This document shows, piece after piece, positions 21,401 to 64,000 of a stretch of DNA of 64,000 nt (position 1 is the stretch's first letter; every line of letters begins with the position of its first letter). The notes beneath the pieces were generated by a model that did not search any database, had not been told where the DNA came from, and saw nothing but the letters and a program-made list of their open reading frames with translations. The DNA comes from Amyelois transitella. Lineage: Eukaryota > Arthropoda > Insecta > Lepidoptera > Pyralidae. The stretch is taken from positions 2,448,001-2,512,000 of the forward strand of contig NC_083530.1 of NCBI RefSeq assembly GCF_032362555.1. Direction: 5' to 3'. The translations under genes were made by a program, and so were the position numbers.

Positions 21401-24400
21401 TTTTATAGCTGCTCTACTTAGGTAGGTACAAAGGCAGTTGTTTTATTTCGTAGCCGACTTTTAGTACCTAATAAATTGTAGATCTTATTTTTTTCAAAAA
21501 AAAGTTTCGGACTATATCACAGAGATACGTACATGTAACCTCGTTCAGTTTTACCCGACTGCAAAAGGAGAATAGTACCTTCAAGTGGAAAATAGGTAGA
21601 TTCCTTGTTTAAAAGCCTTTCCCTTTATTGACTTTTACAACCTTCACGGGTAGAGAAGCAGAAGGCACACTATTTTTCTTCGCTATTAGACCTAAGTACA
21701 TGGTACTGATAGCTATGGGAATTTAAGTAGGTAAACTTCTAAAAATATACTTAGGTGACTATTTATAAATCTATCTAAAATAGGTTTAAAAAAATATTTG
21801 AATATTTGTTTTTGTATGAACATAAACTAGTAGGTAGGTACATACATTTTATTTCATTAAATTTTATGTAAGTATTTAATCTTGTTGCTATATTATGTAC
21901 TAACGAAATCGCGGATAAAAATGTACCTATTTCTCTGCAGCATAAATCGAGGATACCACTAGGTAGCAAAGTACAACAAATATATACTAATATTATAAAG
22001 CTGAAGAGTTTGTTTGTTTGAACGCGGTAATCTCAGGAACTACTGGTTCTAATTGAATTCTTTTTGTGTTGAATAGACCATTTATCGAGAAAAGCTTTAG
22101 GCTATATAACATCACGCTGCAATTATAAGGAGCAAAGAAATAATGGAAAATGTGAAAACACGGGGGAAATTATTCATCCTTGAGGGCTTCAATGATACCC
22201 AATATAACTATTCCACGCGGACGAAGTCGCGGGCACAGCTAGTGAATTATAAAAAGGTCAATGACAATTTAATTTCGTACATAGTAGTTGTCCTTTTCGG
22301 ACAAGACCGCCGACCAACCTTTACCGAATAAGGTAAGGCGTAGACTATAGTAAAAGTGGCATTGACTGGAACTCCCGAAAAGGAAACGCGAGATTATATT
22401 ATGAAGATGAAGGTCTATATTCCTTGCGAGATAGACAGAGCTAACAGTCTTGAAAAGACTAATAGGCCACGTTCAGCTTTTTGGCTTGATGATAGAATTA
22501 AGATTCAAAAAGTGATAGGTTGCTAGCCCATCGCCTAAGAGAAGAATCCCAAGTTTATAAGCCTATGCCTTAGTCGCCGACATCCATGTGAACGAGATGG
22601 AGTGGTCCTATTCTTTTTTTTATTGGTGCCGGGAACCACACGGCACATGTCTGTACAGTCCGTCACAAGTCGCCAAAACGGTCCTGATTTGATCAAGGAG
22701 CGTTCGTCTTGGCCTTCCTTGATCATCTTTTTAATGAAGTCCTCCGTGAGAAGCATGTGGTACGCTTATGACAACGATGTTCGACTGGTAGTTTTTACAC
22801 GAACATACATGCATACATACCTAAATGGCCTCTGTGGCGCAGCGGTAATACGCTTGTCTGTGACACCGGAGGTCCCGGGTTCCAATCCCGGTCAGGGTCT
22901 TGGGTGTTTATCTATGTAAGTTTTTATTAATAGTCAAACGAACTTACCTGTACGTGAAGTTCGACTGTAATTATGTGAAGTTGTTGTCTCGTCCGAAGAT
23001 GATGAACAGATTACTAATGTAGTATCGGTCTTGTACTCACTAGCGCTAGTGAGTACAAGACCGATACTACATTAGTAATCTGTTCATCATCGAGGACGAG
23101 ACAACAACGAACATAATTATAAAATATAGGATCGTTGGGTTAGTATCTCGTAACACAAGTTTCGAAGTTACTTCGAGGCTAACCTCAATCTGTGTGATTT
23201 GTCCCGTATGTATTTATTTATTTATAAAATCACGTCATTTTCCCGGAGGGGTAGGCAGAGTCTACATCTTTCCACTTGCCACGATCTCTGAATACTTCCT
23301 TCTCTGCATGCTTCATCTACATTCATAACTCTCTTCATGCAAGCTCGGCGGTTTCGGGTACTCTTGACCTGACCCTTTGCCTTTTTTACACGAAGCGAGT
23401 TATAATTATTCCGAGTTATGTGCTGGTTTATTGTAAGGGCAGCATAACCCGACATTCTTTCGTCTGTCGTAACTGTTTGGCTGCACGCCAAGTTTTAGCG
23501 GACAACTTGATGTATTTGGTGGATTCGAGTGGATCAGAGCTAGTTGAATGTCGATGACTTGAGTGACGGTACACATGAGCGGCGTCATAACAGATTGCTA
23601 GTGGGCGTGGGTATTTCGTTGAAACGATATCAAGAACCGTGCCGTGTGGTTCCCGGCACCAATACAAAAAAAGAATAGTCTAAAAAGGCGACTAAGTGAT
23701 AGGCTTACAAACTTGGGATTCTGTTTTTTGGCGATGGGCTAGCAACCTGTCACTATTTGGATCTCAATCCCATCATTAAGCCAAATAGCTGAACGTGGCC
23801 GTACAGTCTTTTCAAGACTGTTGACACAAGGGATATAAACGTGACTATATGTATGTATGTATGTATATCAAGAACATTAAAGGTCTATACCCGAATGGAT
23901 CTTGAATACCTGGGAAGATCACGTAACTATGGAATTCCACCCATATGTAGTACATGAATTAATTCATAATCACGTCTATATCGCCTATGGTGTAGAAAAA
24001 CTGACAGGCCACGCTCAGCTGTTAGGCTCAATGATATAATTGAGATCCAAATAGTGACAGATTGCTAGCCCATCGCCTAAAATAAGAATCCCAAGTTTAT
24101 AAGCCTACCCCTTAGTCGTCTTTTAAGAAATCCATGGGAGACAAATGGAGTGGTCCTATTCTTTTCTATTAGTGCCGGGAACCACACGGCACTAATAGAA
24201 AATATATAAAAGACTTCGAGTAATTCTTGCGTACAAAAAGACCATGTCATATTATGCCTATACTGATTCACAATCTCAACTATGACGAAATGCATTATGC
24301 TAAGTATTTAATCGTATACCTGTAGTGCATAAGCATGAGGATGTGACGCATAGAAAACAAAGTACAGTATCTCTATATACTAGATTTTTTTATCTGAAGT

Positions 24401-32659: not shown

Positions 32660-33673
32660 ATGAAGGTCTTATCGGAAGACAGAACTAGGATACTGTTCGA
32701 AAAATTAACTAAATAGTAAGTCCTGACAATTCATTTTCGCTGTATTCATAACTTGGAGATATCAATGTATAAAGTTGTTTCTTTATATAATTCATATGAA
32801 AATCTTTTTATTTTTCAGTATCGGAGTAAACGTAAAGCTGCTCATAGACAGACCAGATGGTACATATTGCTTTAGAGAGAAAAAGGACAGAGTTTATTAC
32901 ATTTCAGAAAGGCTTCTGCAACTAGCACAAACTGTGAAACCAGACCATTTAATTTCAGCGGGAACATGTTTTGGAAAATTTACAAAGACTAATAAGTTTA
33001 GGTTACATATAACTGCATTGACATACATTGCTCCATACGCCCCATTTAAGATTTGGGTGAAGCCCTCCTCTGAGCAACAATTTTTATATGGACACCATGT
33101 TATAAAGAGTGGTTAGTATTCTTTCTTTAAAAATTTCCAGAGACCATACCTGCCTGCATTATTAGATAAATAATTAAAAATGGTTACATATACGAGCTTG
33201 AGACTTTTGTCATAGGTTTCTAACTCATCTACAACCTATTCTACAATAAATACATATACTGATAAATATCTAAAACATAAGCAAAAATTTTTGTTTTTCA
33301 TCATTGTTTTTCTGGCTGTGTGATGGGAGACTAAACATTTATGTTAAAAAAAACCATAAAGGGAAAATATTCTTTGTAATATTACTTTTAATTTTGTTTA
33401 TTCAGAAGATACGACTATTATTTTTATTCATTATCTATTTCTAACTACGCTTCCTAATAAAATAACATTTTATTTGCAGGTTTAGGTCGTATAACAGAGA
33501 ACACACCAAAACACCAAGGAGTAGTCATATACACAATGTCGGACATTCCCATCGGATTCGGAGTAGCCGCCCGTTCTACAACGGAATGTAGGCACGCAGA
33601 CCCACTGGCCACCATTGCATTCCATCAAGCAGATATCGGTGAATATATTAGATCCGAGGACACTCTTACGTAG
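32660..33673 (+). CDS. NIP7: 60S ribosome subunit biogenesis protein NIP7
   Basis: Join of 32660-32715, 32819-33111 and 33480-33673, with GTAAGT, GTTAGT donors and CAG acceptors; 543 nt, 180 aa, the usual NIP7 length. The protein starts [20 protein letters not shown] and ends [16 protein letters not shown]. The N-terminal half carries the [13 protein letters not shown] and VYYISE blocks; the C-terminal half is the PUA domain with [17 protein letters not shown] and [12 protein letters not shown]. In yeast and human NIP7 acts in the nucleolus in pre-rRNA processing and 60S assembly. Stands alone on the plus strand between two minus-strand genes. Nothing appears damaged. Confidence 0.97.
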
Positions 33674-43902: not shown

Positions 43903-44727
43903 TTAATAAGGTACAAATGGTTTTACAGTATCCATTCTTTTACAGGATGCGTCTGCCCAAAACAAAAAATCTTCCTTCAAAGCCATAACGCATTCTAATA
44001 ACATTACGCAATCTCCTTCAGCCCTATGAGCATTTGTTGCGTCCTTATTTAACAAACGCTTGTAAAGTGATGTCAATGTGTAATTACTTCTCTGGGAATT
44101 ACTAATGATGCGTGTAGTATTAGAAGAAACACCTCTAAATGACATGTTTGGTTGAGGTGTATCCAACCTGTCTATTTCAGTCCAATCTTCATTACTTAAA
44201 GATAACGCAGGAAAATCATCATCTTCATCATCAGTAAGAATACTATCATCAGCACTAGAATTTAAAGTCTTATAATTAACAGGATTATCCTTCAAAATCT
44301 TCCGGAACACAAGCAAAGAGTCTAAACATAGCAACCTTTTGGGTAAAATCCTTTCGATTTTTACAAATTCAGCTAATAAAACCTTAAAATCGAAAGCGCT
44401 GCCGTTGTGGGCAACTAAACAAACGGGCTCTTCCAATTCTTCCAGAAAAAAAGTGATAGTATCTACTCTTTCAACAAAAGTTGGACAATTTTTTAAATAT
44501 TCATTTGTGAGCCCTGTGATATGGGCTGCCACAGGATTAATATTTCTCTCAGGGTTGAACAGCAATGACAATTTATGGCATGCCGGTATTCGGCCATTTT
44601 TGGAAACAAGAATATCGTATCTTGATATCGCGATCAAACATAGTTCAGTTATTTTGGTATGGTTTCTCTCCTCTCTCGGTAGTCCCGTTGTCTCCAGGTC
44701 CAAAAATACGAAGGTGCGAATGTTCAT
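43903..44727 (-). CDS. TREX-type 3'-5' DNA exonuclease (DEDDh)
   Basis: Single coding exon, 274 aa, starting MNIRTFVFLDLETTGLP. Exo I motif has D10 and E12; Exo II is LVAHNGSAFDF with D113; Exo III is HRAEGD with H234 and D239, so the four metal/catalytic acids and the general-base His of the DEDDh class are all present. PVAAHITGLTNEYL (65-78) is also typical of TREX1/TREX2. An acidic insert (158-190, DDEDDD) sits before Exo III. There is no C-terminal membrane segment like that of mammalian TREX1, so a soluble TREX2-like form is expected. The family degrades 3' ends of single-stranded or mispaired DNA, in repair or cytosolic DNA clearance. A TTTTGTTTCAG acceptor seven bases upstream of the ATG suggests a spliced 5' UTR. 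Confidence 0.92.
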   Translation of the reverse strand: MNIRTFVFLDLETTGLPREERNHTKITELCLIAISRYDILVSKNGRIPACHKLSLLFNPERNINPVAAHITGLTNEYLKNCPTFVERVDTITFFLEELEEPVCLVAHNGSAFDFKVLLAEFVKIERILPKRLLCLDSLLVFRKILKDNPVNYKTLNSSADDSILTDDEDDDFPALSLSNEDWTEIDRLDTPQPNMSFRGVSSNTTRIISNSQRSNYTLTSLYKRLLNKDATNAHRAEGDCVMLLECVMALKEDFLFWADASCKRMDTVKPFVPY

Positions 44728-44939
44728 CGTGACACTGAAACAAAAGTAATAATAAACTTTACAAACAACGTGTTATGTAAACCATACACCGCATACGAAT
44801 CATCAGTTGTCTTGGTCAGTTTCGACTGGTTACGAACATGTTTCGTTGACAGCTGAACGTTAGCTCTCGGTCTTTTCCAGACTGTTGGCTCTGTTTGGTC
44901 CGCAAGGGATATAGGCGTATTTATGCATATGTTACTAAA

Positions 44940-47379: not shown

Positions 47380-50300
47380 TCAATAATCCTCCAAATCATC
47401 TTCCATTATTCCTTCTTCATCTATTTCAACAACAGAATCATCTAGTTCATCACCAAAGTCTTCCGCTGTCAAATCTATCATCTCATTTGAAGCTTTATCT
47501 TTTTTGTTAGCAACATTGCTATTAATGTTACTAGCACTATCTATTGTGTTACCAACACTGGTATTAAAGTTTCCAGCACTATCTTTTATACTACCAACAC
47601 TTGTATTAATGTTACCAGCGCTATCTTTTGTGTTACCAACACTAGTATTTATGTTACTAGCACTACCTATTGTGTTACCAACACTAGTATTTATGTTACT
47701 AGCACTATTTATTGTGTTACCAGCACTATTTTTTGCGCTAGCAATACTGGCGTTTATGTTAGCAGCACTATCTATTATGTTAGCAGAACTGTCTATTTTT
47801 GCAGCAGGACTGTTTTCATTATCAACATTGTCTTTGCTTGTACTAGGATTTGGAACTTCAACTTCCTCTGAATTTTCTGTATCATTTGGAATATTGAATG
47901 TGCTTTCATCACCACTAATTTCTATCACGTCTGGCTCTTTAATAACTTCAATGACGTCATCATATTCACCATCAACAGGCACTTCTTCACCAATTTCTGA
48001 GCCTTCTTCGTCGTCGCTTACTTCAGCGCGCTGCTTTCGACGTAAAAGCCGCCGGAATTTGAAAGGTATTGTCAGGTGCAGAGGTTTGCAGGTCACGAGA
48101 CATAAACCTGATGGGGAGAAAATGTTTTGATTATTATTTCATTCGAATGTACAGTATATATAGTAGAGCCCGCGAACTGAACTGTCCGCTATTGCACTAA
48201 CAGGAGATAACAGGAGACATTTTGCGTTTGGATTTTAAGTTTTAAGGTACTTGTAATCAGGTCGTTATTTTTATTGAGTTTTCATTTGATTTGATTATGC
48301 TATATGAGCCCGAGGTGGTTTTTAAACAAGGCTGTACTGTGAGACTGCACTGATACTAAATATCGTTAAAAATTGGCTCATGATAGTCTTGAGATTCCAA
48401 TAGTGACAGGCTGATAAGCCATTACTTTAAATAATCCCAAATTTATTATCCTTTCCTTAGATAAACTTTTATAATCTGCACAGGAAGAGAAACAAGCTTA
48501 CACAGACTACGTTTTCTCTTCACTACAACACTACCTTCAAAGAAAATCGCAGCCATTTCATTTCTTGAAAAACGGGAAGCTAATTTAAGTATTCAAATGG
48601 TGGAGAATCATACTAAAGTTTATATAGATTCAGAATAGACTAGTATTTCAACGAAAATCGATTTTTCCTGAAAATCGATACAATTTCTCCTTACCGTCTC
48701 TTCCTTGAATCGGTATGCCGGGATGAGTGCACAGATTATCGAAATTCTCATGGGAATCCACACTGGCGACCAACATTTGAGTTTTGGACCTGTTCGAAGC
48801 CTTGAGAGAAGTGATTCCGTACGGCAACAGCGCTTGCTCCACGTCAGTCTTAGGCGCTTTCCCTCCATTAATGAAAACGCGAACGACCAGTGTGGACGTT
48901 TGGTTTATAATCCTCTTTATTGTGTGAAGGCGTATTACCTTTAAAAATAATAATAAATACATACATACATACATATGGTCACGTCTATATCCCTTGTGGG
49001 GTAGTCAGAGCCAACAGGCTTGAAAAGACTGATAGGCCACGTTCAGCTGTTTGGCTTTATGATAGAAATTGAGATTCAAATAGTGACAGGTTGCTAGCCC
49101 ATCGCATCAAAGAAGAATCCCAAGTTTATAAGCATATCCCTTAGTCGCCGTTTACGACATCCATGGGAAAGAGATGGAGTGGTCCTATTCTTTTTTCTAT
49201 TGGTGCTGGAAACCACACAAAATAATAATAAATTTATATATTTATTAACACAATGCATTCACAACAGATAAATAAATACGGGAAAAATTACACAGATTTA
49301 GTTAGCCTCTAACTCTAAGTAAGTTCAATATTGTCATGAGATACTAATAAACACCCCAGGGCAGGATCAGAGAAAGTTCGTTTCTCATCATGCCTTGGCC
49401 AAGATTTGAACCCGGACATACTATGACACACACAAGGAAGGCGAACCCCCTGCCCCGAAACACTTGTCTCTTTTATAACTATGCACTTACTATTTTCTTG
49501 TTACTGTGTAAATTTCTATGCAATAAAGATATAACAAACAAACACTTTTATTGAGAGTGCAACCGGGAAGAGATGATGAGATAAGGGAGAGAGAAAGTGA
49601 GGGAAGAGCAGTCCAGAATTGTCAAAGATAGCGGAGTTCTATGTTATATACAGCTACATCAAATATTTTTTCATAAGTATTAGTAAGTTTGTGGGGCAAC
49701 AAAACAGGTTTAGTCTATTTTGCAATATTCTAAATTTCGTAAAAACACAACATTCGCGAGGTCTTAATTCGCGGCGTACGACTAGTTTATAACCAATAAA
49801 GTATTTAATTCATGATTTCCGCCTTGAGAGGTAGAACATGTGTGCACTAAACAATGTAACTAGATAATTAAGACCTATTGTAACCATATTCAAGTAATAA
49901 ACTGATTATGATGGTGTTACATTAGTCAGTCTTACCGATCTGAACTCCCCGCTCGCTCTGTTCACTATGGCCTGCCCGATAACATTGTCCTCTGGCGTTT
50001 CATTAGGGAAATCATCGATGGCGCTGTTAAACTGAAAGAAATTGATAAAAATATTGTGATAAAAGAAACTCAATCTTAAGTGCCGTGTGGTTCCCGGCAC
50101 CAATGAAAAAATAATAGGACCACTCCATCTCTTTCCCATGGATGTCGTAAAAGGCGACTAAGGGATAGGCTTATAAACTTGGGATTCTCTTTTTAGGCGA
50201 TGGGCTAGCAACCTGTCACTATTTGAATCTCAATTCTATCATTAAGCCAAATAGCTGAACGTGACCATTCAGTATTTTCAAGACTATTGGCTCTGTCTTC

Positions 50301-53300
50301 CCCGCAAGGGATATAGACGTGACCATATGTATGTATGTATGTATCTTAAGGTAAGGTATTTTCTTTAAAGAAATACATCGCGTTGGGGGACCCATCTATA
50401 TCCGTCAGGGTTTATAAAAAAGATTGGTATACATACGACTTCGGTGATTTCATCCAGTTCGTCTTTGAGAGCCTTCTCAAGTTGTGGCGTTGGGCATTTG
50501 TACAAGTCTTCCTCGAGAAACTCCTTCTTATCCAACTGCTTTTGCTCTGCATAATTTATAGAGAAATAAATTGATATAGCAGCCAAGTAGTTAAAAAAGC
50601 CGTACAATTAAACAGGGTTGTTAGGGTATTATTGTGTAAATACAGTACTAACACTTTTATAAATCAATATTCAACCGCCGAATAGCGCCACTTACTGCCT
50701 AATCAAATTGAATGAAAACTCAATAAAAATAACGACCTTATTACAAGTACATTAAACTTGAAATACAAACACAAAGTCTCCTGCTATGTCATTCTTAATA
50801 ATAGTTTAATAGCGGACAGTTCACTTCGTGAGTTTAAATGGCGCACTCGTACGCACATCGTGTAACTTATAAAAGTGGGTAGTACTGTATTTACACAGTA
50901 TCACCCTGGCAACCCTATTACAAAATATTTTTACAAAATAAAAGAATTCACTCTCACCTCGCCTCGCCTGCTTAACTGTAAAAAGAAAACAGACAATTAA
51001 ATAAAAACTCAGATATTGATTTACATTTTATAGAACTTCACTTAGAAGGCTTAAATAAATAAAACGAATTAAAAAGATGACAAACAATGAAGGACCTAAA
51101 ATAGATCCTTGTGGCACTCCACCATTATTCACGTCACATTTTAGTTATATCAACAGTGCGTGAATAAAATAACCAGATTTCCGTTTAAGCCATTGTAAGC
51201 CATCTATAGCGGTATTCTATGTTTCGATGCGGCTGTATTCTTCTGAACAAAATTTTTACTAATTTGGTTTTTAGTATATTTTCCTGATAGTTAAAAGGGT
51301 GAAAAACTGTGGCATGCTTGAAGAATCAAACTTAACAGTATGTAGTGGGCCTTTTAAAGAAAATAGTTCGCAACTTATTGAGCTAATACCAAAAACCCTG
51401 TTTTTCTAAAATGCAATTTTAAAAGCTTCCCCTAGTCTGAAAGAGATTCTATATCTGGTGAAAATAGTATTGCATATACGACAATAAGTTATTTAATAAA
51501 GTAAGTTGGAAAGTACATAAATCTTATAACTAGCATTTGCACAGTTAAAGTGAAAACAATCATACCTAAATCAACCGGCCTCGGTTTCTTCCCGGGTTTT
51601 TGTTTTAACACGGGAGGTACTTGTTTAAATTGAGAAGGTGGAACCTGTGAAGGTGGTGCCGATGGCGTCTTTGCGAAATTGTAGAACTTTTCTGAAAGGA
51701 AAAATAGATATATTTTTACAAAAGCAAAATACATATTTTAAAAGATTTACGAATTATATCGCATATATACAACAGGTCTAACCACAGTTATTATATCTTA
51801 AGGACCCAAACTTTCAGACGGGCTTTCAAATTAGTGTAGATTAGACTACGGGAATTTTTTTCCCTGCAGTGTTATTATGTTTGAAAAAGATTACCTGTCG
51901 GCGCCGATTTTGCTACAGGTCCGCTCAACAAAGGTTGGGGTTGGGATACTTTGGTGTCGGTTGGGACCTTTATTGGTTTTTGATCCTCTGAAAATATAAA
52001 GTAAGATAAAAAGGTAAATTACTTATAGAATTTCTAAAAACGATGTTTACTTTAATTTCAACAAACAAATGGATTTTCTCATTGTATCATCTAAATATAC
52101 GTGTTTGCATATTTTAAAAAGGGTTAACATCATGTTTGTGGACTTGCTCGTTGCTTGACTTTCTCGAACTTCAAATGATATACTTTACAATTTCCAGAAC
52201 CGCACAGTAGTAAAAGTCATAGTTGAGTGAATCATGAAAAACAACGTACAGCCATTTGGTGGTACTCAGTTATCAGATCAAATTATGCAGATCTTAAACG
52301 ATGGTACCACCTTAACGAAAAAAGTCTCGGGTATGAAGTCGCATATTAAAGCTACTTTAAGGTAAGACATTTTCTCAACTTCTCTTAAGGATAATTAATA
52401 TATCCTTACTATTTATTGTTTTCCTCTCCCAACCCTCGAATTATTTAACCACATACAAAAGATGTAAAATCCTTATCATATTCAGGTTGGTATCGAAATT
52501 AACAAACCAAACCAAATAGATTAAATAAAAAGAAATTTTAGAAATTCCCCTTGTTTGTACTTAATAAAAAATGATTGATTGAGGTATATTTATAAAGAGC
52601 GTCATTGTAATATTGTGACGAGAAGTGGGGCCATCGTGGAGTTATGGAAGCGAAAATATCGTCAATGAATACTAAACCTTATCATCATCACAATAAAAAT
52701 TTGGGAAGATTTGAACAACATACTGGAGCATCTAATACTCCAATGTTAGGTCAAACATTGAGTATTCTCGGCGCCCACAGTGAATCTGTTCAGTTTCGTA
52801 CTTTATTGCAATAATAACTTAGTTTCTTGTGTACCTAGACGATAGATCTATCTTCCTATAATCCAGCTATATCACAATATTCGTGCAAAATGAAGGTCAC
52901 TCAAATTGCATTCATGCTTCTATACCTATCATAATAAAAACTACTGAGTGTATGGAAAAATATGTTCATACAATGTCAAGAGACCCACAGATAAAGTTAA
53001 GATATTTAATTTAGTCTTACAGATAGATTCCACTGAAGTAGACGCGTGAGTCTGTCTGTGAAAAATAAAGTTCCTTATTGCTAGTTTTCTCACTTGCAAT
53101 AAGGAACCATTCTGGGCATATAATGCAAACCGAGTTATCCTACCTTACAATTAACGCTCCTTGTAAATACCCCTCAAATTTACCTGGTTTCACCTCTGGC
53201 TTAGACTTTTGAAAAATGACGTTAAACAATTTTTTATCCTGATTTTGTGGATGCGTCGACCTGTATAACTTTACTACCTCCTCTTCTTGCAGAAGAGGGT

Positions 53301-56300
53301 ACGAATTGTTCGGAAACGTCCGCTGTATTATCTCGTCTAGTCGGCTGTTCAATGCAACTTTTAACATACGCTGACATTCTTGATAATGTTTCTTTCCAGG
53401 TTGGTTAGCATCCTTAAATACCCAAAGGCGGTTCATAATGTTTTTAACTATGAACGATACGGCTTGGCCGCGCCAAGATATAGCCCTGTTAATCGTTTTC
53501 TGGTCTAGTTTGGCTTCACTTCCAGATATATGTTCATCAGTTTTGAAGCGTTTTTCGGGAACCGCAGGTTTTGTTGGGGAGTTTTGCAAAAAATGAGGGG
53601 GTGGGTTACGATTCCATTTTATTCCAGGTTTAGTATCATTTCGATCATTTGGCCGACTTATATCGAAATTTTTTTCATTTAGCTTGCCACCAAAAGGTTT
53701 AGATTGAGGTTTATCAAATTTAGTGTTCCAAGTATTTGACCGCGAATGAGAATCGCTAGGATTGATAAGCCTATAAGGTGATGGTGTAGGCTTCACAGAA
53801 TAGGTATCCCGAGACGGTCCACCGCGATTTTGATTTTCAGCGGAATCCCATCTTGAATTTTTAATTTGGTTTCCTCCGAACCTATTATCACGCGAATCGC
53901 GATTATCAAAACCTCGACTTTGATTGCCTGCAAAACCTTTATCACGCGCATTGGCAATGCTTTGATTGCCCCCGAAACGCTCGTCGCGCGAACCCCTTTC
54001 ATCAAAACCTCGGTTGCCTTCAAACCGATCTGATTGAAATCTATTTTTATTCGAGTACCTGTCACCTCTTTCAGGGCTATAACTTCGTTTCCGACCAGCA
54101 TCCCTCTTTTGAGGCAATGCGCTTACTTCGCGGGGAGCCCTAGACTCTTGATAGGTAAATCCCCTTGAATCCGAATTGAATCTTGGGTCAAAGTCATAAC
54201 CCCTTCCTTGCTTAGGGACCTCGTAGTTGGACTCCCGATAACCAAATTCTTTATTATTTCCTCCAGAATATTGATGAGAGCCTTGTTTCTTATCCGGTTC
54301 ACAGGCTTTTTCATTACTGGATTTAGTATATCCATACCCAGATACATTTGCTGTTTTTGGTTGACCCTGTGTTGCATTTAACTGTTGCGCCTGTTGCCCT
54401 TGTTGATTCCCGTATGCCACAATAGTGCTCTGCGAATTATCGACAATATTTAAATATTAAATTACCCAATTTGTGAACCAACATCACAAATATTTGTGTA
54501 GAATTGACATAGACTACATTTATCGTCCGACACACACAAAACATATTCTGATGCGCATACTGGACAAGCTATGCCTACTGGACACTCATACATTTTAGGT
54601 TAGCCACCATATATTCTTGCACCGCAAAAAAATTAAAAAGTGGATCATTACAGATAATGACTACTTTTAAAATCTTTTCGCGATCAGCGGCGATCTTTAG
54701 TGTAATGAGCTCCAACGGAGTTGACTTACTTTACAGAACCAACTTTTATACTAACATTCAAAATATCTTATACCGTCACCACATTTGTGAAAAACCCAGA
54801 AATACTTGCACTTATGATTATTCTACATATTGTAGGCTCATTTATACCAGTTTGTCACTGGGGTGTACTATACCCCCCCTTATGCCACCATATGTGATTC
54901 ATCTTGTGGAATCCTTTTTTAAGCTGGTCCAGACATGTACTTTTGTCCGAATCGTATCAGAGTCGCGTTCAAAGAACGCTGGTCTGGACGAACGTTCGCT
55001 TCGATCCATCGCGAGTCGGTTTTATATATGCGTCCAGAATTTTTGGATCGCATAACTGAGACGTCACGGAGGTACGGTACGGACAAAAGAGCATGTCTGA
55101 ACCCAGTTTTAAACAGACTACCTGAAATAGGTTTCCTGAAATTTATGCGGTCCTTTTTCAGGGAACCTTATGCGCGAGGTAAGAGCACAGAAGAACAACA
55201 ATAGAATCCATAAGTTTGACGTGCTCTCCACCTCTCGGACACCGAATGCCAATAACATACACAATCTTTAGACACAATTACGTCCTGCCTCTTAGGAAAA
55301 GTACCCGGTGTCAACCAGTGACCACGGGCTGGAGTGGTCAAGATTTTAGGCGACTTCCGTCTTATCTCTACAGGGAAACCCAACTCAGTTCGGATCATGG
55401 TAACACATCCAGTTGGCCCGAATGCGTAGTTATAGCTTTCTAGGTAGGTTTTTGTAATCAACTCAGAAAGGAGTCATTGGTATATGAAAGCTGTAGGATT
55501 TGAACGAAAGTAACCTATGTTAAGCTCACAATGCCATGTCGTAATTAATCGAAAATGTACGACAGGTTGCAAATGACCTTGTGGCATGATATAATGTCGC
55601 GCAGTCCTGCCCTGGTGTAAATGAATCCTAATCAGCTCCACTTCAACCATGACTTAAGACATGTATGACATGTAGATGGAAACGCCCAAGGTAGCAGCAG
55701 TGCTGCCCTGGTGTAAATGAGCTCTAATAATCAGCTTTATTTCGACAGTAACTTAAGCGGATAGAATAGAAAACGCTCAGGGTAGCAGTCACTGTGCCCA
55801 TCTGTAAAGCTTGACTAACATATAGTGTTAGTATAAAGTGGCAGCCTGTTAAGTAGATTTTGCCCCTTTCATTGACAGAGGCATCCGACAGTGGCCAACC
55901 ACTTAAGAAGTCCACTTTACCTAGGTTACCTGAATGTGCTGTAATCTTCGCAACAGCCAGACAGTATATTACTTTTTATGTGACAGATTACAAGTTATGT
56001 GACATATCACAAACTTGAATCAACAATATAACAGGCTCAACCTGTGGGTTGTTTTGATTTGAAATAATTAAAGCTATTCTCCTGTGCCGAACTCAACTCG
56101 GCATCTCTTCTAATTTTACTACAGAGCATACTACATCATCTGAGCTAACCTTTACCTATTCAGTGACAGACATTGAAGCAAGGTTTATTCATCTTCAAGC
56201 TTATGACAATACTATTATCTTACCTGTATCGGCACTGCCATTCCGTACATTCCCATGGCATTATATCCAGCATAATTTTGCACCATCTGTTGGTCCATGA

Positions 56301-57638
56301 CCTGATAGTTTTGATATCCATATGTAGTGTTCTGATTGGTCATAGCATAACCATATCCTGTGGCAGTTTGCCCACTCGAAGGATGGGCAGTTTGCGCACT
56401 CGAAGGATGGGCAGTTTGCGCGCTCAAAGGATTGATGAAACCAGTCATTGGGTTTTGATTGATCAATGGATTTTTATTAGAATAGTGTATAGTTGAGTTT
56501 GTGTCCAATGTGGTTTGTGACTGAAACAGACAGGAGTTTTTGACAAATTCACATCAATGGCCCTTAAGGGATAGACATATTCTGTAGTGGGCCAAAATCA
56601 CAAGACTTGTGGGTTTAAATTTTTATTTGTTGTTTTATGGAAAAAAGTAACAACAACAATGCTTAGTTATGGAATTCAGAAGTTGCAAGTATATTCCCTA
56701 AAAGGAGAATCCTAAGTTTATCAGCCTTTCCCTAAGTCACTTTTTACACATTTATGAGAAAGAGAGGAAGTGTGTGCCAGGAAGCAAATGCACCAGAATA
56801 AAATAAGAATTTTTTAAAACCATCTATTTGGTATTGGCCATTCTCCTGATGGACTTTGTTTGAGAGTATAGTGTAATGCAATTATAATTTTCATGTTCTT
56901 TCTTAAGAATATTATGTCATCTACTATTTACAGCAACTGACATTGACATCAGAAGTGTGTAAACTAGATCTATGTCTGGAAGTACTTCCCGAATATTCAC
57001 CTTGCTTTTTCTAACGTCTTCAACAAAAATTTGCTGTCCTTCCACATATGTCCCATTTAATGTGTGCACAATATTTACAGCATCTTCTTCCTTAGCTACT
57101 CCTATTGTAACCTGCTTCGTGGTCGGCCCATCCTTTATCAACTTGTCCAATATAATGTCTTCCACATAACATTTGTTGTTGATGAATTTTTTTATATCAC
57201 TGTATGTCATCTGACAACAAAAACAACATTCAAAGATTCATGCTGCCATATATAAGGTTGAAGAATGTGGATAAGCTAACTTAATGGATCATGGTTAATA
57301 GAGTAAAGTGGGATAGGGCCAGCTTTGGTCAAATTTCGAATACCTAAAAAAAGGAGATGTTGGGAGTACCCATTATCAGCCAATATGCATGAAAAGAGTT
57401 ATGCGTGTGGAGTAAGCGGGAGAGGTTTGTAAGGATCGTAGCAAGTGGAAATCCATAGTCTCTGCTGTCCCAAAAGCAAATAGAAAAATTTATCACACCT
57501 ATGGCGGACTGGCAACCAAAAAACTTGACCGTATCCGGCTTTAGAACCTTTGTAGGATGCAAAAGCAATTGGTTTGGTACAACATATATCTCAAAGACGA
57601 CTTACATGAGAAGGCAAATTGTGCATCACCAGCAACAT
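47380..57638 (-). CDS. RRM gene A: RRM-like, low-complexity nuclear-type protein, 1066 aa
   Basis: Complement of 47380-48107, 48695-48938, 49936-50031, 50437-50546, 50958-50975, 51566-51691, 51895-51987, 53184-54429, 56224-56520, 57001-57210, 57606-57638; 3201 nt, every junction GT-AG and in phase. It begins MLLVMHNLPSH then MTYSDIKKFINNKCYVED, an RRM-like fold with an RNP2-like first strand (LLVMHNLP) and an RNP1-region QIFVEDV. Next is a Q/N/Y-rich region (exon 56224-56520), then an R/G/N/D-rich region with FGGNQ repeats and KRSYSPERGDRYS, then a helical block (AISWRGQAVSFIVKNIMNRL). Distal exons encode an unknown mixed domain (LLPYGITSLKASNRSKTQML) and an acidic tail with 13-residue repeats. 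Likely nuclear RNA-binding; exact family not recognised. Paralogous in its RRM to gene B on the plus strand. Confidence 0.85.
47500..47790 (-). repeat. 39-bp coding tandem repeat in the acidic tail of RRM gene A
   Basis: About six units of the 13-residue pattern SAGNINTSVGNTI/KD at roughly the middle of the last exon; unit length is a multiple of three, so the frame is kept. Confidence 0.85.
48165..48305 (-). mobile_element. truncated copy of the 50613-50918 MITE
   Basis: GAACTGTCCGCTATT, AACAGGAGA and AGGTCGTTATTTTTATTGAG match the complement of the interior of the element at 50613-50918. Confidence 0.65.
48944..49233 (-). repeat. TATG-tailed SINE with about 15-bp target-site duplication
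   Basis: Element flanked by AAAATAATAATAAAT at 48944-48958 and 49219-49233; it starts 6 bases behind the exon at 48695-48938. Confidence 0.85.
49255..49447 (-). repeat. tRNA-derived SINE, diverged
   Basis: Minus strand: GGGTTCAAATCTTGGCCAAG and a body ending in AGATTTAGTTAGCC; same order as 38490-38692. Confidence 0.65.
50073..50350 (+). repeat. TATG-tailed SINE with 8-bp target-site duplication
   Basis: Flanked by ATCTTAAG at 50073-50080 and 50343-50350; full length from GTGCCGTGTGGTTCC-type head to (TATG)n. Confidence 0.88.
50613..50918. mobile_element. MITE with about 50-bp terminal inverted repeats
   Basis: Left end CAGGGTTGTTAGGGT ... GTGTAAATACAGTACTA ... CTTTTATAA; the right end is its complement with a few changes. 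About 306 bp, no ORF, inside an intron of RRM gene A. Confidence 0.8.
50958..50975 (-). CDS. 18-nt microexon of RRM gene A
   Basis: TTAAGCAGGCGAGGCGAG between TTTTTACAG and GTGAGA. Adds VKQARR and keeps phase 1 on both sides, so it could be skipped without shifting the frame. Confidence 0.6.
52234..52814 (+). other. possible small coding exons or transposon remnant on the plus strand
   Basis: An ATG at 52234 opens MKNNVQPFGGTQLSDQIMQI and so on for 42 codons, up to a GTAAGA donor at 52362. A second open stretch, MEAKISSMNTKPYHHHNKN to SVQFRTLLQ, runs from about 52645 to a TAA at 52812-52814. No acceptor joins them convincingly. It sits inside the largest intron of RRM gene A on the opposite strand. 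It may be a nested gene or a decayed mobile element; I do not recognise either peptide. Confidence 0.25.
54919..55112. mobile_element. short MITE-like element between TTAA sites
   Basis: Left end TGGTCCAGACATG...TTTTGTCCG; the right end is its imperfect complement (CGGACAAAAG...CATGTCTGAACCCA). TTAA lies just outside both ends (54919-54922 and 55109-55112). Confidence 0.6.
55115..56220. other. intron of RRM gene A, no gene seen
   Basis: Has diverged repeated phrases (GCCCTGGTGTAAATGA at 55609 and 55707), but no supported exon. Confidence 0.5.
56360..56431 (-). repeat. 24-bp coding repeat, three units, in RRM gene A
   Basis: Encodes AQTAHPSS, AQTAHPSS and GQTA in a row, from GCAGTTTGCGCACTCGAAGG units on the plus strand. 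Confidence 0.85.
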
Positions 57639-58357
57639 GGTGATAGCTTCTACTTAGTCCCTAAGCACAGAAGGAAAACAGTCATATAAATGGTTCTGAA
57701 AGAAATGTTTTGTGAACCAATTACGTTAATTGGTAGAAAGAATGAATAATTCAAACAACCCTTGTAAAATAAATAGTTTTTTATTAACGTCAGTGGACCC
57801 GACCACAAATATTAACACACAATCACAGATATTAATAAATAATGTCAAAGAGAATATAAATAACCACTGTGAGCCCGGCACGACGGCCACTGGCAATGGC
57901 AAGGTAGGGCAAAGACATCAAATCAAACTAGCACAAGATGTATGTCAAAGTTAATTTATCATGCCAATCATCAAAGTGACACACTAACTAGTCTAAAGCA
58001 GCAGTGTTGCGAATTTAGATCTTTTAGTTAAAGCTTGAACTCGCGATTTATTTTAAGAATATCGAGATTTCAAGAATCCAAGATTTTTTTAAAGTAAAAA
58101 CAAAAAAATGATCTTTACAAATTCAATCGATCTGAGTAAAATGACCCTTGGATTGTAAATGTCCTATAATCATTAGGGTCAAGTTAGCGCTTTTTTTTTT
58201 GTCAGAGAAAACAACACTGGACAAAAGAAAGAATAGCAAATGTCGGGGTGAAGACAAGACATCATTGCTTGATTTTCTTGTTTCGTTTTCTCGTTTATAG
58301 ACATTTTTATGGCAAATATTTACATGTGGTGTTATGAGCGTATAAACCCTTTTCAAT
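57639..58357. promoter_or_regulatory. shared 5' region between the divergent RRM genes
   Basis: The two start codons face away from each other across about 719 bases, so both promoters and 5' UTRs must lie here unless non-coding first exons exist. An open stretch at 57742-57954 (plus) has no similarity I recognise. No TATA box stands out. Confidence 0.45.
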
Positions 58358-61300
58358 ATGATGTTAACAATACACGGGCTGCCATCGGTGGTAAGAAATT
58401 TTTACCTTTCATGTTTAGGTATTTTCCTAGCTCCTACAAACAATTACAAAATTATAGATTTTGCAGTATTCCTCCTTAAAGTTGCTTACCTTATATATTT
58501 GAGATAAACATGCCACATTTAAAAAACATTCAATATCGACTTACAACGTATCTATATCTAATAAAAGTAAATTATCATGAATTAATCATATTTGGTTTCA
58601 GGCCACCTACCACGATGTAAGGACGCTACTACAAATGGAATGCAAGATAAACGATTTCATTTTGGACAGTATGGTAAATGATAAGGGAGGCACAAAGAAG
58701 GTCAGGATTGGACTGGCAGATGAAGTGGAAGGAGCACACGTGATTAAATGTCTGGACGGCTTCCGGTGTGGTGGGAATGCACTTTATGTAGTGCCCGTTG
58801 GGAAAAATGTAAGATATTTTCATTACCTACTAAGTACTTAGTATTTATATATTTACTAAAAGAATGCCTGCTGTTATGCTTGCGAGAAACAAAAAATACT
58901 CACTTTCCCCAAGAATTTTCCTTAAGTTACAAACTACATTCCTGCCAAATATCAGTTTTATGGTGAAGCCATTTTAGTTTTTTGATTTGTGAGTGATCTA
59001 ATAAAGTGTTGTTTGCTTTAAGATATATTTATTTCCTGCTCAAGGTACACCTATGACAACTTTTTTGTTTGTTGACAATGGACATAAATTATATTCAACT
59101 CACTGACACACACACAACACCCCCGTGCCAAGAGTGAGTTGAATACTCACACACAACACCATTTTTATTGCGTGAAAAACTCACTGTCCTGCCAGTTTTT
59201 ATGATAGTTTTTTACCCAATAAAAAAGACGTCACGCATGCCATGCTGCAGGTCTGAAAGAAATTAAAAATAAGTAATGCCCTTATAAAAATTTTTCATTA
59301 GTCCTAGCTTCGTCCTATTTTTCTTTGTAAAACAAATAAATAAATTCAATTCTTTTTTTGTACTTTTGATACCTCAGCAACAACCACCAAACGTACAACC
59401 AGCTTTCAATCCCCATGGGGCCTACCAGGGTCCGGGCCCTAGCTATGCAGTGCAAGACCAGTTTGCCCCCCCTCAACAAGTGGGCCCGGGGCCATGGAAT
59501 GCAGGAAACCAGTGGGCCCCAAACCAGCCCCAGATGGGGTATAACTATCCACAACAGAATGTGCCGTTTCAACAGGGCCAGGTATTGTTTTGTGAAATCT
59601 TAGTAATTTTAAAGGTATGTTCCCATTTACCCAGGGGAGCTAAGCTTAGGACCCAAAACCTACTTTCATCTTATATATAAAAATCTTGTGTCACAATGTT
59701 CGTTCCCGTATTCATCTGACACTGCTTGACCGGTTCTCATGAAATTTTGTAAGCATTGAGTGGGGCTGAGAATCGTCCAACATCTATTGTTCATACCCCT
59801 TAGTGATAAGGGTGGTCCACCAATTACATTGTTTTTTAAATTATACTTTATTTATATGGCAAAACAATGTTTGCCGGGAGAGCTATAATATAATGTATAT
59901 ATTTTTTTACATTTTGCAGTCCCAGCAGCAAAGACCATTGAACCAACGGGAGCTGATGCTCCAGGCATCGAGGGCTCCAGTACAGGATTCATTCCTTGGA
60001 GGCTCTGTTCCTGTAAGCTTTTCAACAATACTTTTACTGAGAACTTCGCTTAATCACGCTGCAAGTGATGAAGCGAAGAAATAATGGAAAATGTCAAAGA
60101 AACGGGGGATATTATTCATCCTTGAGGGCTTCAATGATGCCCAAAATAACTATTCCACGCAGATGAAGACGCGGGCACAACTAGTAACATATAATCACGT
60201 CCTTATCCTTTGCGTGGTAGCCAGATTCAACAGTCTTGAACAAACTGAATGGCCATGTTCAGCTTTATGTCCTTATGATGTCATTGAAATTCAAATAGTG
60301 ACAGGTTGCTATCCTATTATTAGCCAAGTTAAGCCTTACCTACTTTCTTTTTTGAGAAAGAGATTGTGAGAGAGAGAGAGATTGGTGGCAAGTGGAAAAA
60401 TATAGTCTCTGCCTACCCCTCCGGGAAAAAGGCGTGATTATATGTATGTATGTGCGTGATTATATGTATGTATGTTAAGCCATTCCCGTAGTCTTTTAAG
60501 ATATCTATTGGAATATATATAGTGTAATGTAATATTAAGGAGAGATTTCTACTCGTACATACATACATACATAAAATCACGCCTCTTTCCCGGAGGGGTA
60601 GGCAGAGACTACCTCTTTCCACTTGCTACGATCTCTGCATATTTCCTTCGCTTCATCCACATTTATAACTCGTAAATTGCGAGGAAACAGACAGCAAAAA
60701 AAGAATTCAAAAGAATGAACTGAACTTGTGCATAACTTTTTTTATGTATAATTTAATTTATAAGGGATAGGCGTACAAACTTGGGATTCTTTTTTAGGCG
60801 ATGGGCTAGCAACATGTCACTATTTGAATCTCAATTCTATCATTAAGCCAAATAGCTGAACGGGGCCATTCAAGTCTTTTCAAGACTGTTGGCTCTGTCT
60901 ACCCCGCAAGGGATATAGACGTGATCATATGTAATAAAATGTAATGTTTAATTTATAATTTAGCCGGCATCACGACCAGCGCTTCGTAACATAGAAACAG
61001 TGGACATACCCAAAGGTGACCAAGGCCGCTATCAGAACTATGAACAGCCAAAACCGGTAAGTTTTGCTAAGTGTATTCTCTCGTCCACATTCTTTTTTTT
61101 GTTTTCATTTATTGTGGCACAAACAGTCAAAAATACAGACAGAATTACAAAGACAGTAAACAATATAGTAGACCAAACAGTGCCGATTATGTTTATGGTG
61201 TAGTAATTATAAAAGCATGCTTGTTAACAATCAGATGATCTTAATTATCCTAATCGTGATTTAGTACAGTGATGATGTGAGAGCATTGTTATCCCATAAA

Positions 61301-64000
61301 TACAAAAGAATCAATACAAAAAGAAAAGAAATCAAATCAAATACATTCTATTCTAAGTTTGGATAATTGTGAAGTTGACGTTGTTGAAGAAAATGCTGCA
61401 GTGCAGTTTGTTACCGCTTCTTCTGCACTGACGCCTTGGGAGCGGCAGTAAACTTGGTTTTAAGTAATTTATTTGACGTTAACCAATGTTGTGAAACCAA
61501 ACGTTTTGACAATTATCTATACTAATATTATAAAGCTGAAGAGTTTGTTTGTTTAAACGTAGCGCGTCAACGAAGGAACTACCTACTGGTTCGAATTGAA
61601 AAATTATTTTTGTTTTGAATAGACCATTTATCGAGCAAGGCTTTAGGCTATATAACATCACGCTGCAACTAATAGTGGAAAACAAATAATGGAAAATTAT
61701 TCATCCTTGAGGGCTTCATTGATGCCCCAAATAACTATTCTACACGGACGAAGTCGCGGGCACAGCTAGTTAAGAGATATGAAGTATCCTATAATAATGT
61801 ATAAAAATTTTGAATTTGAATTTGAGTACTCTATACTATACCTAAGTAATGCTAACCGCTGCTCCTGGTGAGACCGCAGCGGCATGACGTCACAGTATTT
61901 TGATGTAGTAAATATTAAAATCATTCTATTAGCATATATTTATGACAAGAGAGTTATGAAAATGAAGTAAAATGCACTCCACGCTTTTTACTCCTATTTA
62001 AATTGTTTTGTTTATAAATTTAATTTTGTTATAATTTTAATCGGAGGTAATTGACTATAACTGATTGTTCGACTTGCTACTACTGTTTTATAATTCCTTT
62101 GTCATTAATTTTTATTTTCTATGTTTTAGTTCGATTAGCAATAAAAGCGTAGTTTTTTAGTTTTTTTTTTAAACTATTATTTTCTTGTTTTAGATAACAA
62201 TTAAGAAGGACAATTTCATGGGTCCCGATGTGGGTACCGGATCTTATCCCCAGGGACATGGTCAACCATCGCCGTGGCAAGATCAGGTGAGTATCTACCT
62301 ACACGCATCCTACCATTGAAGTTAACTTTCAAGTAGGTAGGTATTATGGATAATAATTTTACCAAATACATACTTATTTGTGCCGTGCGGTTCTCGGCAT
62401 TGATGGAAAAAATAATAGGACCACTATAAACTTGATATTCTTTTTTATGCGATGGGCTGGCAACCTGTCACTTTGTGAATCACAATTCTATAATTATGCC
62501 CAATAGCTGAACGTGACCATTCAGTCGTTCCAAGACTGTTGGCTCTGTCTACCCCGCAATGGATATAGACGTGACATATGAATGTATGTATGTATTTAAA
62601 TTAGGCAAATTTTTGCAAGAATTTTGCTAATTTAGTTTATTTTTAGGGCCCGCAACGCAAACCGGGTGATTTCCGCAAGTCTAACCAACCTTACGAAGAT
62701 GACAAGAAGTACCAACCAAAACATGGCATCTTGAAAAATCCAATAATCGACCGTGATCGGCAAAACACCCATTTTTCACTTCAAAGACGGGATTCCCCTG
62801 GCAGGAGACCATCCCCTGGCAGAAATATTTCCCCTGGTCGCAGGATGCCTGATCATAAAATTCCACCTAACGATCATAGGGGTAAGATGCCTGATCATAG
62901 AATGCCTGATCACGGGCCTAATGATCGGAGAATGCCAATGAACGACAGAATGGGCCCAAATGATCGTAGAATGCCGTCAAAGGATGATAGAACGGGCCCG
63001 AATGATCGGAGAATGCCAATTAACGACAGAATAGGGCCAAACGACCGTCGTATTCCTATGAATGACGACAGGATGGCCTCAAATGACCGAAGAATGGCTT
63101 CAGGTGATCGCAGAATGCCTATAAATGATGATAGATTGGGTCCAAATGATCGTAGGATGCCATTAGACGACAGGATGGGGCCAAATGATCGCAGAATGCC
63201 GGGAAATGATGAGAGAATGGGGCCTAAGGATTGGAAAATGTCGTCGAATGATAGATTGGGTCCAAATAGGACGATGAAAGATGATAGAATTGGTCCCATG
63301 GATGTACCGCATCACGGCAAAGTTTCCCCTGGAAGACGCGTTTCTCCCGTAAGGCGACATTCCCCTGGGCATCCCGGAAGGAGAGACGGTCCCATGGGAA
63401 GGGATATTTCTCCGACAAGACGCAGGATTTCTCCATCAGGTTAGTGGTTTGAACTTTCTTTTTTGTTATACTATATTTAATTTTTTATTTTTAATATATT
63501 ATTACGTCTATATAGACGTCTCTGCCTACCCCGCTACTACCCCCGGTAGACAACAGTCTTGACAATGAAAGGCCACATTCAGCTATATGGAATTGAAATT
63601 CAAAAGTTTTCCTTTTCATTTGCGGAAAAAGCTGTATGGTTAAGTACTTTGCCTATGTCAAAAAAATAACTGTCATGTTTAGGTAAAATAAGGTAGAACA
63701 ACGCGTGTCTTCATTTTCATCACTACACAGGAGAAAGCTAAATCGCTTCCCGCGTCTGTCCCTATGTATGTATGGTACTTCTACTCTATCTACGAATTTT
63801 GATGCAGTTTTTTTTTAATAGATAAAGAGTGATTCAAGAGAAAGGTTTTGTAATGTATAAATGGTACCCGTGCGAAGCCGGGGCGGGTCGCTAGTACATA
63901 ATATAGCCACTGAACGGTGGAAATATCATTTCATGTATTTTTTTGGTTGTTTTAAATAAATATTTTTCTTTACAGATAGACGTTTGCGGTCCCCGCGTCG
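58358..64000 (+). CDS. RRM gene B: RRM-like protein with Gln/Pro-rich and NDRRMP-repeat regions, 3' end outside the window
   Basis: Join of 58358-58390, 58602-58808, 59378-59581, 59920-60012, 60964-61056, 62194-62286, 62647-63439 and 63976 onward; every junction is GT-AG and in phase. The protein starts MMLTIHGLPSVATYHDVRTL, an RRM-like domain with RNP2-like LTIHGLP and an ALYVVPV strand in the RNP1 region. Then comes a Q/P/N/G/Y-rich segment (PPQQVGPGPWNAGNQWAPNQ), and a large exon with SPGRR motifs and about ten copies of NDRRMPxNDDRMGP. The last exon in view reads DRRLRSPRR. The composition suggests a nuclear RNA-binding protein with an RS-like, phase-separating tail. The first ATG at 58309 is out of frame with exon 2, whereas the ATG at 58358 gives an RRM, so I chose 58358. 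Confidence 0.85.
59100..59160. repeat. short direct repeat in intron 2 of RRM gene B
   Basis: AACTCACTGACACACACACA and ACTCACACACAACACC phrases around GAGTGAGTTGAATA; simple CA-rich sequence. Confidence 0.5.
60055..60183 (+). mobile_element. H1 Helitron-type element, 3' half
   Basis: From ATCACGCTGCAAGTGATGAA to GCGGGCACAACTAG; the left half is missing. Confidence 0.65.
60190..60335 (-). repeat. TATG-tailed SINE, diverged 3' half
   Basis: AATCACGTCCTTATCCTTTG through ATAGTGACAGGTTGC. Confidence 0.65.
60380..60460 (+). repeat. LINE 3' end fragment
   Basis: TGGTGGCAAGTGGAAAAATA then GCCTACCCCTCCGGGAAAAA and TATG tail. Confidence 0.6.
60562..60680 (-). repeat. LINE 3' end fragment
   Basis: CATACATACATACATAAAAT then CACGCCTCTTTCCCGGAGGG; reverse of the 7605 element. 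Confidence 0.65.
60765..60935 (+). repeat. TATG-tailed SINE, 5' truncated
   Basis: AGGGATAGGCGTACAAACTT through CGCAAGGGATATAGACGTGA; ends 29 bases before the exon at 60964. Confidence 0.75.
61360..61820 (+). repeat. S3 repeat interrupted by a Helitron-type element
   Basis: TGAAGTTGACGTTGTTGAAG ... ACGTTTTGACAATTA is interrupted at 61516-61769 and resumes at 61770 with TTAAGAGATAT ... AAAATTTTGAATTTGAATTT. The copy at 11643-11880 is uninterrupted. Confidence 0.85.
61516..61769 (+). mobile_element. Helitron-type element, family H1, boundaries defined
   Basis: 254 bp, 5' TCTATACTAATATTATAAAG and 3' GGGCACAGCTAG, inserted between A (61515) and T (61770). A 5' TC, a 3' CTAG-type end, no duplicated target and an A/T host site are Helitron hallmarks. 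Confidence 0.85.
62383..62600 (+). repeat. TATG-tailed SINE with central deletion
   Basis: GTGCCGTGCGGTTCTCGGCA head, then directly the CACTATAAACTTGATATTC block, (TATG)n tail. Confidence 0.8.
62860..63290 (+). repeat. NDRRMP coding tandem repeat in RRM gene B
   Basis: Roughly ten units of 13-15 residues, pattern NDRRMPxNDDRMGP, encoded by imperfect 39-45 bp units; bounded on both sides by SPGRR/SPTRRR motifs. Confidence 0.9.
63720..63894 (+). mobile_element. Helitron-type element, family H2
   Basis: TCACTACACAGGAGAAAG after A, ending GGGTCGCTAG before T; ends 81 bases before the next exon of RRM gene B. Confidence 0.75.

Follow-up and report, generated by a model that had tools for sequence, protein, structure and literature searches.

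A Head-to-Head Gene Pair with Mirrored First Exons

The DNA analyzed here, referred to as the window, is a 64,000-nucleotide stretch of the genome of the moth Amyelois transitella (contig NC_083530.1, positions 2,448,001 to 2,512,000), and it contains two genes, designated A and B, that are transcribed away from each other, gene A on the minus strand and gene B on the plus strand, with their start codons 719 bp apart. Exon models for both genes were built from splice-site sequence and open reading frame. As modeled, gene A runs from position 57638 to 47380 in 11 coding exons and encodes 1066 amino acids without an internal stop, and gene B runs from position 58358 to ∼8 kb beyond the window (gene end C26:2520036) in 13 coding exons and encodes 1514 amino acids, with exons 9-13 and most of exon 8 located in the 10 kb past the window end.

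The first two coding exons of each gene encode an RNA recognition motif (RRM). In both genes exon 1 is 33 nucleotides (nt) long and carries the start codon and RRM strand 1: exon 1 of gene A (57606..57638, minus strand) encodes MLLVMHNLPSH and is followed by the donor GTAAGT, and exon 1 of gene B (58358..58390, plus strand), placed by its splice sites and open frame, encodes MMLTIHGLPSV and is followed by the donor GTAAGA. The remainder of the RRM is found in exon 2, which is 210 nt long in gene A (57001..57210, minus strand; acceptor TTGTCAG, donor GTGAAT) and 207 nt long in gene B (58602..58808, plus strand; acceptor GGTTTCAG, donor GTAAGA). Introns 1 and 2 are in phase 0 in both genes. Intron 1 follows codon 11 in each; intron 2 follows codon 81 in gene A and codon 80 in gene B. 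An earlier, sequence-only reading of this DNA had described head-to-head paralogues with mirrored first and second exons in the interval 57606..58808, which covers exon 1 of gene A and exons 1 and 2 of gene B, with exon 2 of gene A just outside. The mirrored exons were confirmed, with good splice sites, and the claim of paralogy was borne out by the comparisons that follow.

When the first 80 residues of the two proteins were aligned, 28 of 80 were identical, with no gaps in either exon (E 9e-20 in a two-sequence comparison), and the alignment score of 149 was not reached in any of 1000 shuffles (mean 24.4, sd 4.7). Six of the 11 residues encoded by the 33-nt exons are the same in A and B, which in itself argues that such short exons are translated. 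We also searched the whole genome (327 Mb, 33 contigs), in a search that scored just the top candidates from an initial pass. The A domain retrieved itself and B (E 4.1e-7; 4 candidates scored), and the B domain retrieved itself, A (E 4.8e-7) and a weak match on C7 (E 0.65; 3 candidates scored), these reciprocal values being for matches that extend only slightly beyond exon 2. The C7 match was considered as a third family member and was taken as chance, since no gene structure was seen in 1 kb read by eye.

We also examined how distinctive the position of the first intron is. The genome contains 152 matches to the Pfam RRM_1 model, and by a count made by eye at most 16 among those listed start at profile positions 8-16; at least three of these sit in long open frames, and so have no exon border there. 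RRMs of this genome may fairly often have an exon border close to this point, so intron position alone would prove little, but intron position and sequence likeness together fit the prediction of common descent. Being adjacent, on opposite strands and homologous, A and B have the properties of a divergent tandem-duplicate pair, and their sequences support the conclusion that they are paralogues.

An RRM Fold without Aromatic RNA-Contact Residues

The RRM-like fold that had been proposed for both proteins stood up to three comparisons. An AlphaFold model of exon 2 of gene A (pLDDT 85.9) has the form of an RRM without strand 1, the model finds RRM matches in the PDB, and a profile made from A and B could be aligned with 30 other genomic RRMs. 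With strand 1 supplied by exon 1, the beta-alpha-beta-beta-alpha-beta order of the RRM superfamily is present. The Pfam RRM_1 model (PF00076) scored the A fragment at 21.8 bits against a gathering cut-off of 20.7, and full-length A at 15.6 bits; B was not matched. An RRM fold is supported in A by the structure prediction, and in B by homology.

Aromatic amino acids at positions RNP2-2, RNP1-3, and RNP1-5 are the usual RNA-contact residues of RRMs, and RRMs without these aromatics often bind proteins. Neither A nor B has an aromatic at any of the three positions, whereas the 30 best-scoring RRMs of the genome have one in 26, 26, and 30 cases, respectively, and none of the 30 is without aromatics at all three; because the comparison RRMs are the 30 best consensus matches in the genome, this contrast is somewhat overstated. 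RNP1-5 falls in a gap of the alignment for both A and B. However, the RNP stretches of A (LLVMHNLP and TKQVTIGVA) and of B (MLTIHGLP and TKKVRIGLA) contain no F, Y, or W, so no alignment register could supply an aromatic. A and B therefore resemble PF00076 proteins in the modeled fold of A exon 2 and in their profile alignment to other RRMs of the genome, but differ from canonical RNA-binding RRMs in the missing aromatics, and B in addition lies beyond the reach of the Pfam model. Because this absence is common to both paralogues, it probably predates the duplication, and because both RRMs are without the three aromatic RNA-contact residues, protein binding appears at least as likely for them as RNA binding. 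Of the sequence-only reading's phrase "RNA-binding gene," the RRM-like fold is retained, and RNA binding is weakened.

Structure of the Two Genes Downstream of the RRM

Both genes had been described as running into low-complexity regions after the RRM, and this was what we found. Exon 3 of gene A (56224..56520, minus strand, 297 nt) is rich in Q, T, N, and Y (12, 12, 11, and 9%), and exon 3 of gene B (59378..59581, plus strand, 204 nt) is rich in Q (24%) and P (20%); both were placed by splice sites and composition. After the Q-rich stretch come R-containing stretches and a helical-looking segment in both proteins; small exons in phase 1 then lead to the C-terminal part. In gene A, exon 4 (53184..54429, 1246 nt, bounded by splice sites) is S/R/G/N-rich and then encodes the helical segment (53185-53520), which was judged from a low-confidence AlphaFold model (pLDDT 58.2); that of B was judged by eye. 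The small exons that follow in gene A were identified by open frame and splice sites only: exon 5 (51895..51987, 93 nt), exon 6 (51566..51691, 126 nt), exon 7 (50958..50975, 18 nt, the least certain exon of the model), exon 8 (50437..50546, 110 nt), and exon 9 (49936..50031, 96 nt). Exon 10 (48695..48938, 244 nt) has splice sites and encodes a C-terminal segment that is perhaps globular, and exon 11 (47380..48107, 728 nt including the stop, also with a splice site) encodes an acidic tail with repeats. Exons 3 to 11 are all on the minus strand.

On the plus strand, exons 4 (59920..60012), 5 (60964..61056), and 6 (62194..62286) of gene B are 93 nt each and were likewise identified by open frame and splice sites only. 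Three consecutive exons of B and exon 5 of A are thus exactly 93 nt long; no sequence likeness is visible among them. Exon 7 (62647..63439, 793 nt), placed by splice sites and composition, is rich in R, P, and D. Exon 8 starts within the window (63976..64000), and exons 8-13 encode an R-rich region, the helical segment, and units of the DUF4780 domain. Coding tandem repeats are present in both genes, in exon 7 of B (62912-63267) and in the tail of A (47496-47813), with 21- and 42-nt units in each, among others in B.

Outside the RRM, pairwise tests of A against B found no homology. When searched against the genome, the helical segment of A matched only itself, that of B matched itself and one more place (E 4.9), and exon 10 of A matched only itself. 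The C-terminal segment of A was considered as a possible second RRM; compared as a profile with the 30 RRMs of the genome, it gave a probability of 14.4 (E 0.0019), and had no weighty match in Pfam or the PDB; the tail of A gave nothing above the Pfam cut-off.

The C-terminus of B matches DUF4780 (PF16012) in two stretches (33.9 bits against a cut-off of 24.5, E 2.9e-8), and its units are related to each other (no shuffle of 1000 reached the score). In the genome, this region of B matched only itself. Another DUF4780 gene is present elsewhere (C27:3722500-3732400, positions 3127-6435), and differs from B in being a single open frame of 1102 amino acids, in which the model matches four stretches, the fourth incompletely; the genome search with PF16012 did not list gene B, so that its tally of such genes is a minimum. 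The strand pattern of DUF4780 suggested a hidden pair of RRMs, an idea that we rejected, since profile comparisons with the 30 RRMs gave probabilities of 0.1 and 0.2, and those with the A and B profile gave 0.1 to 1.1. Against the PDB, the best match of five DUF4780 units had an E of 1.6.

The Intergenic Space and the Remainder of the Window

The 719 bp between the start codons (57639..58357) are compatible with a shared promoter, and we regard them as a candidate promoter region on the basis of sequence. An acceptor-like TTAG ends at position 57661, suggesting that gene A may possess an upstream untranslated exon. A scan for sigma-70 promoters, which uses a bacterial consensus, found 2 where 2.8 were expected, and gave nothing useful.

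Several other features were seen in the window. An open frame on the minus strand (43903-44772) encodes an exonuclease domain (Pfam RNase_T, E 1e-15), and may resemble the TREX group. On the plus strand, two overlapping long open frames (2303-6264) have, by eye, the look of a copia-type retrotransposon, the one gag-like with a zinc knuckle, followed by integrase and reverse transcriptase, and an open frame at 32727-33116 encodes part of the NIP7 ribosome-biogenesis protein (pre-PUA_NIP7, E 2.3e-17, with a query whose first letters deviated from the sequence). ARAGORN detected tRNA-His genes at 8937-9008 (minus strand) and 22828-22900 (plus strand); only the first reaches the Rfam cut-off, and the second may for this reason be a decayed copy.

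Discussion

The evidence described above leads us to favor, with moderate confidence, the view that A and B are old paralogues, which arose when a local segment was duplicated in inverted orientation; the segment would have included the first two coding exons or more, perhaps a whole gene. Between positions 56000 and 59700 we detected ten inverted-repeat pairs of 14-26 nt, none of which joins the RRM exons of A and B, although the tool may miss repeats less than ∼65% alike. Because no mirrored DNA repeat joins these exons, and because the proteins are 35% identical, the duplication is probably old. The "inverted tandem duplication" of the sequence-only reading thus holds for paralogy and opposite orientation, with homology demonstrated for the RRM only. 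Its "fast divergence" is not needed to explain the data, and is inseparable from an old duplication.

Other explanations were weighed against this view. That the likeness of A and B is due to chance or is an artefact of short exons might be argued from the exon borders of other RRMs in the genome, some of which may lie near the same point, but the shuffles, the gap-free alignment across both exons, and the reciprocal genome matches leave this idea with a negligible probability, and the alignment statistics have already refuted it in practice. A more serious alternative concerns the extent of the duplication, since the absence of detected homology outside the RRM makes both whole-gene and partial duplication compatible with the data. 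In a narrower form of the favored view, the inverted copy comprised no more than the promoter side and the two RRM exons, and became a chimeric gene by acquiring unrelated exons downstream, in which case a docking domain would be all that the proteins have in common. The confinement of detectable homology to the RRM fits this proposal, as do the DUF4780 units at the end of B and the C-terminal segment of A, each matching only itself in the genome. Against it, the same order of regions is found in both proteins (RRM, Q-rich, R-rich, helical, small phase-1 exons, C-terminal part), and in each gene the exon encoding the helical segment (1246 nt in A, 1291 nt in B) is preceded by a phase-0 intron and followed by a phase-1 intron. 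Both observations are weak evidence. We consider the chimeric origin less likely than the favored view.

A further alternative differs from the favored view in the binding partner only, and proposes that A and B are ordinary splicing-type RNA-binding proteins, which contact RNA through non-canonical residues and are co-regulated through a bidirectional promoter. The RRM fold, and the presence of R/S and R/G pairs within the low-complexity stretches, are consistent with this proposal, but three RNP positions without an aromatic in both proteins make it doubtful. In the favored view of an old inverted duplication, each copy encodes a large protein with an N-terminal RRM-fold domain, Q-rich and R-rich low-complexity regions, a helical segment, and a C-terminus that differs between the two, with DUF4780 units in B. 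Both proteins would be nuclear, with the RRM acting mainly as a protein-binding module and the low-complexity stretches helping to draw the proteins into RNA-protein assemblies, and both genes would be transcribed from the space between them.

Head-to-head paralogous pairs have precedents in insects, moths included, since both divergent duplicates in Drosophila and chorion gene pairs in the silkmoth have been described. In a D. melanogaster survey, 31.6% of genes belong to divergent pairs whose starts are no more than 1 kb apart; tandem duplicates, defined by E below 1e-10 in an all-against-all search, make up 94 of the 2,199 pairs, or 4.3% (PMC2670823). The A/B values (9e-20 for two sequences, 4.8e-7 and 4.1e-7 genome-wide) are not directly comparable to this criterion. 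A and B resemble these pairs in being adjacent paralogues pointing apart, but the Drosophila pairs were defined by transcription starts, whereas A and B are known by their start codons, and their demonstrable paralogy is limited to one domain. The silkmoth chorion A/B genes form head-to-head pairs with a proposed single superfamily origin and a common promoter region between them, and in each gene a short first coding exon of about 50 nt precedes a longer second exon (PMC4639761). The layout and the small first and larger second exon recur in the pair described here; in contrast, the chorion genes comprise many pairs in one large eggshell-gene cluster, with two coding exons per gene, and A and B form one diverged pair, are long, have many exons, and flank a space that is only a candidate promoter.

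Among the titles, abstracts, and passages seen in the literature searched, there was no description of this pair, and two candidate names for a fly orthologue, neosin and NCOA5, found no support there. No relatives were confirmed in viral_contigs or genome_contigs, collections that are not of animal genomes. DUF4780 is scarcely met in the same literature, where it appeared in a table row of one paper, and here it accompanies an RRM. The locus thus presents a pair of large RRM-fold proteins with no family name assigned and with a clear duplication history. What makes it most interesting is that two head-to-head paralogues both lack the RNA-contact residues, and the pair would allow one to test cleanly whether an RRM devoid of such residues serves pairing between paralogues.
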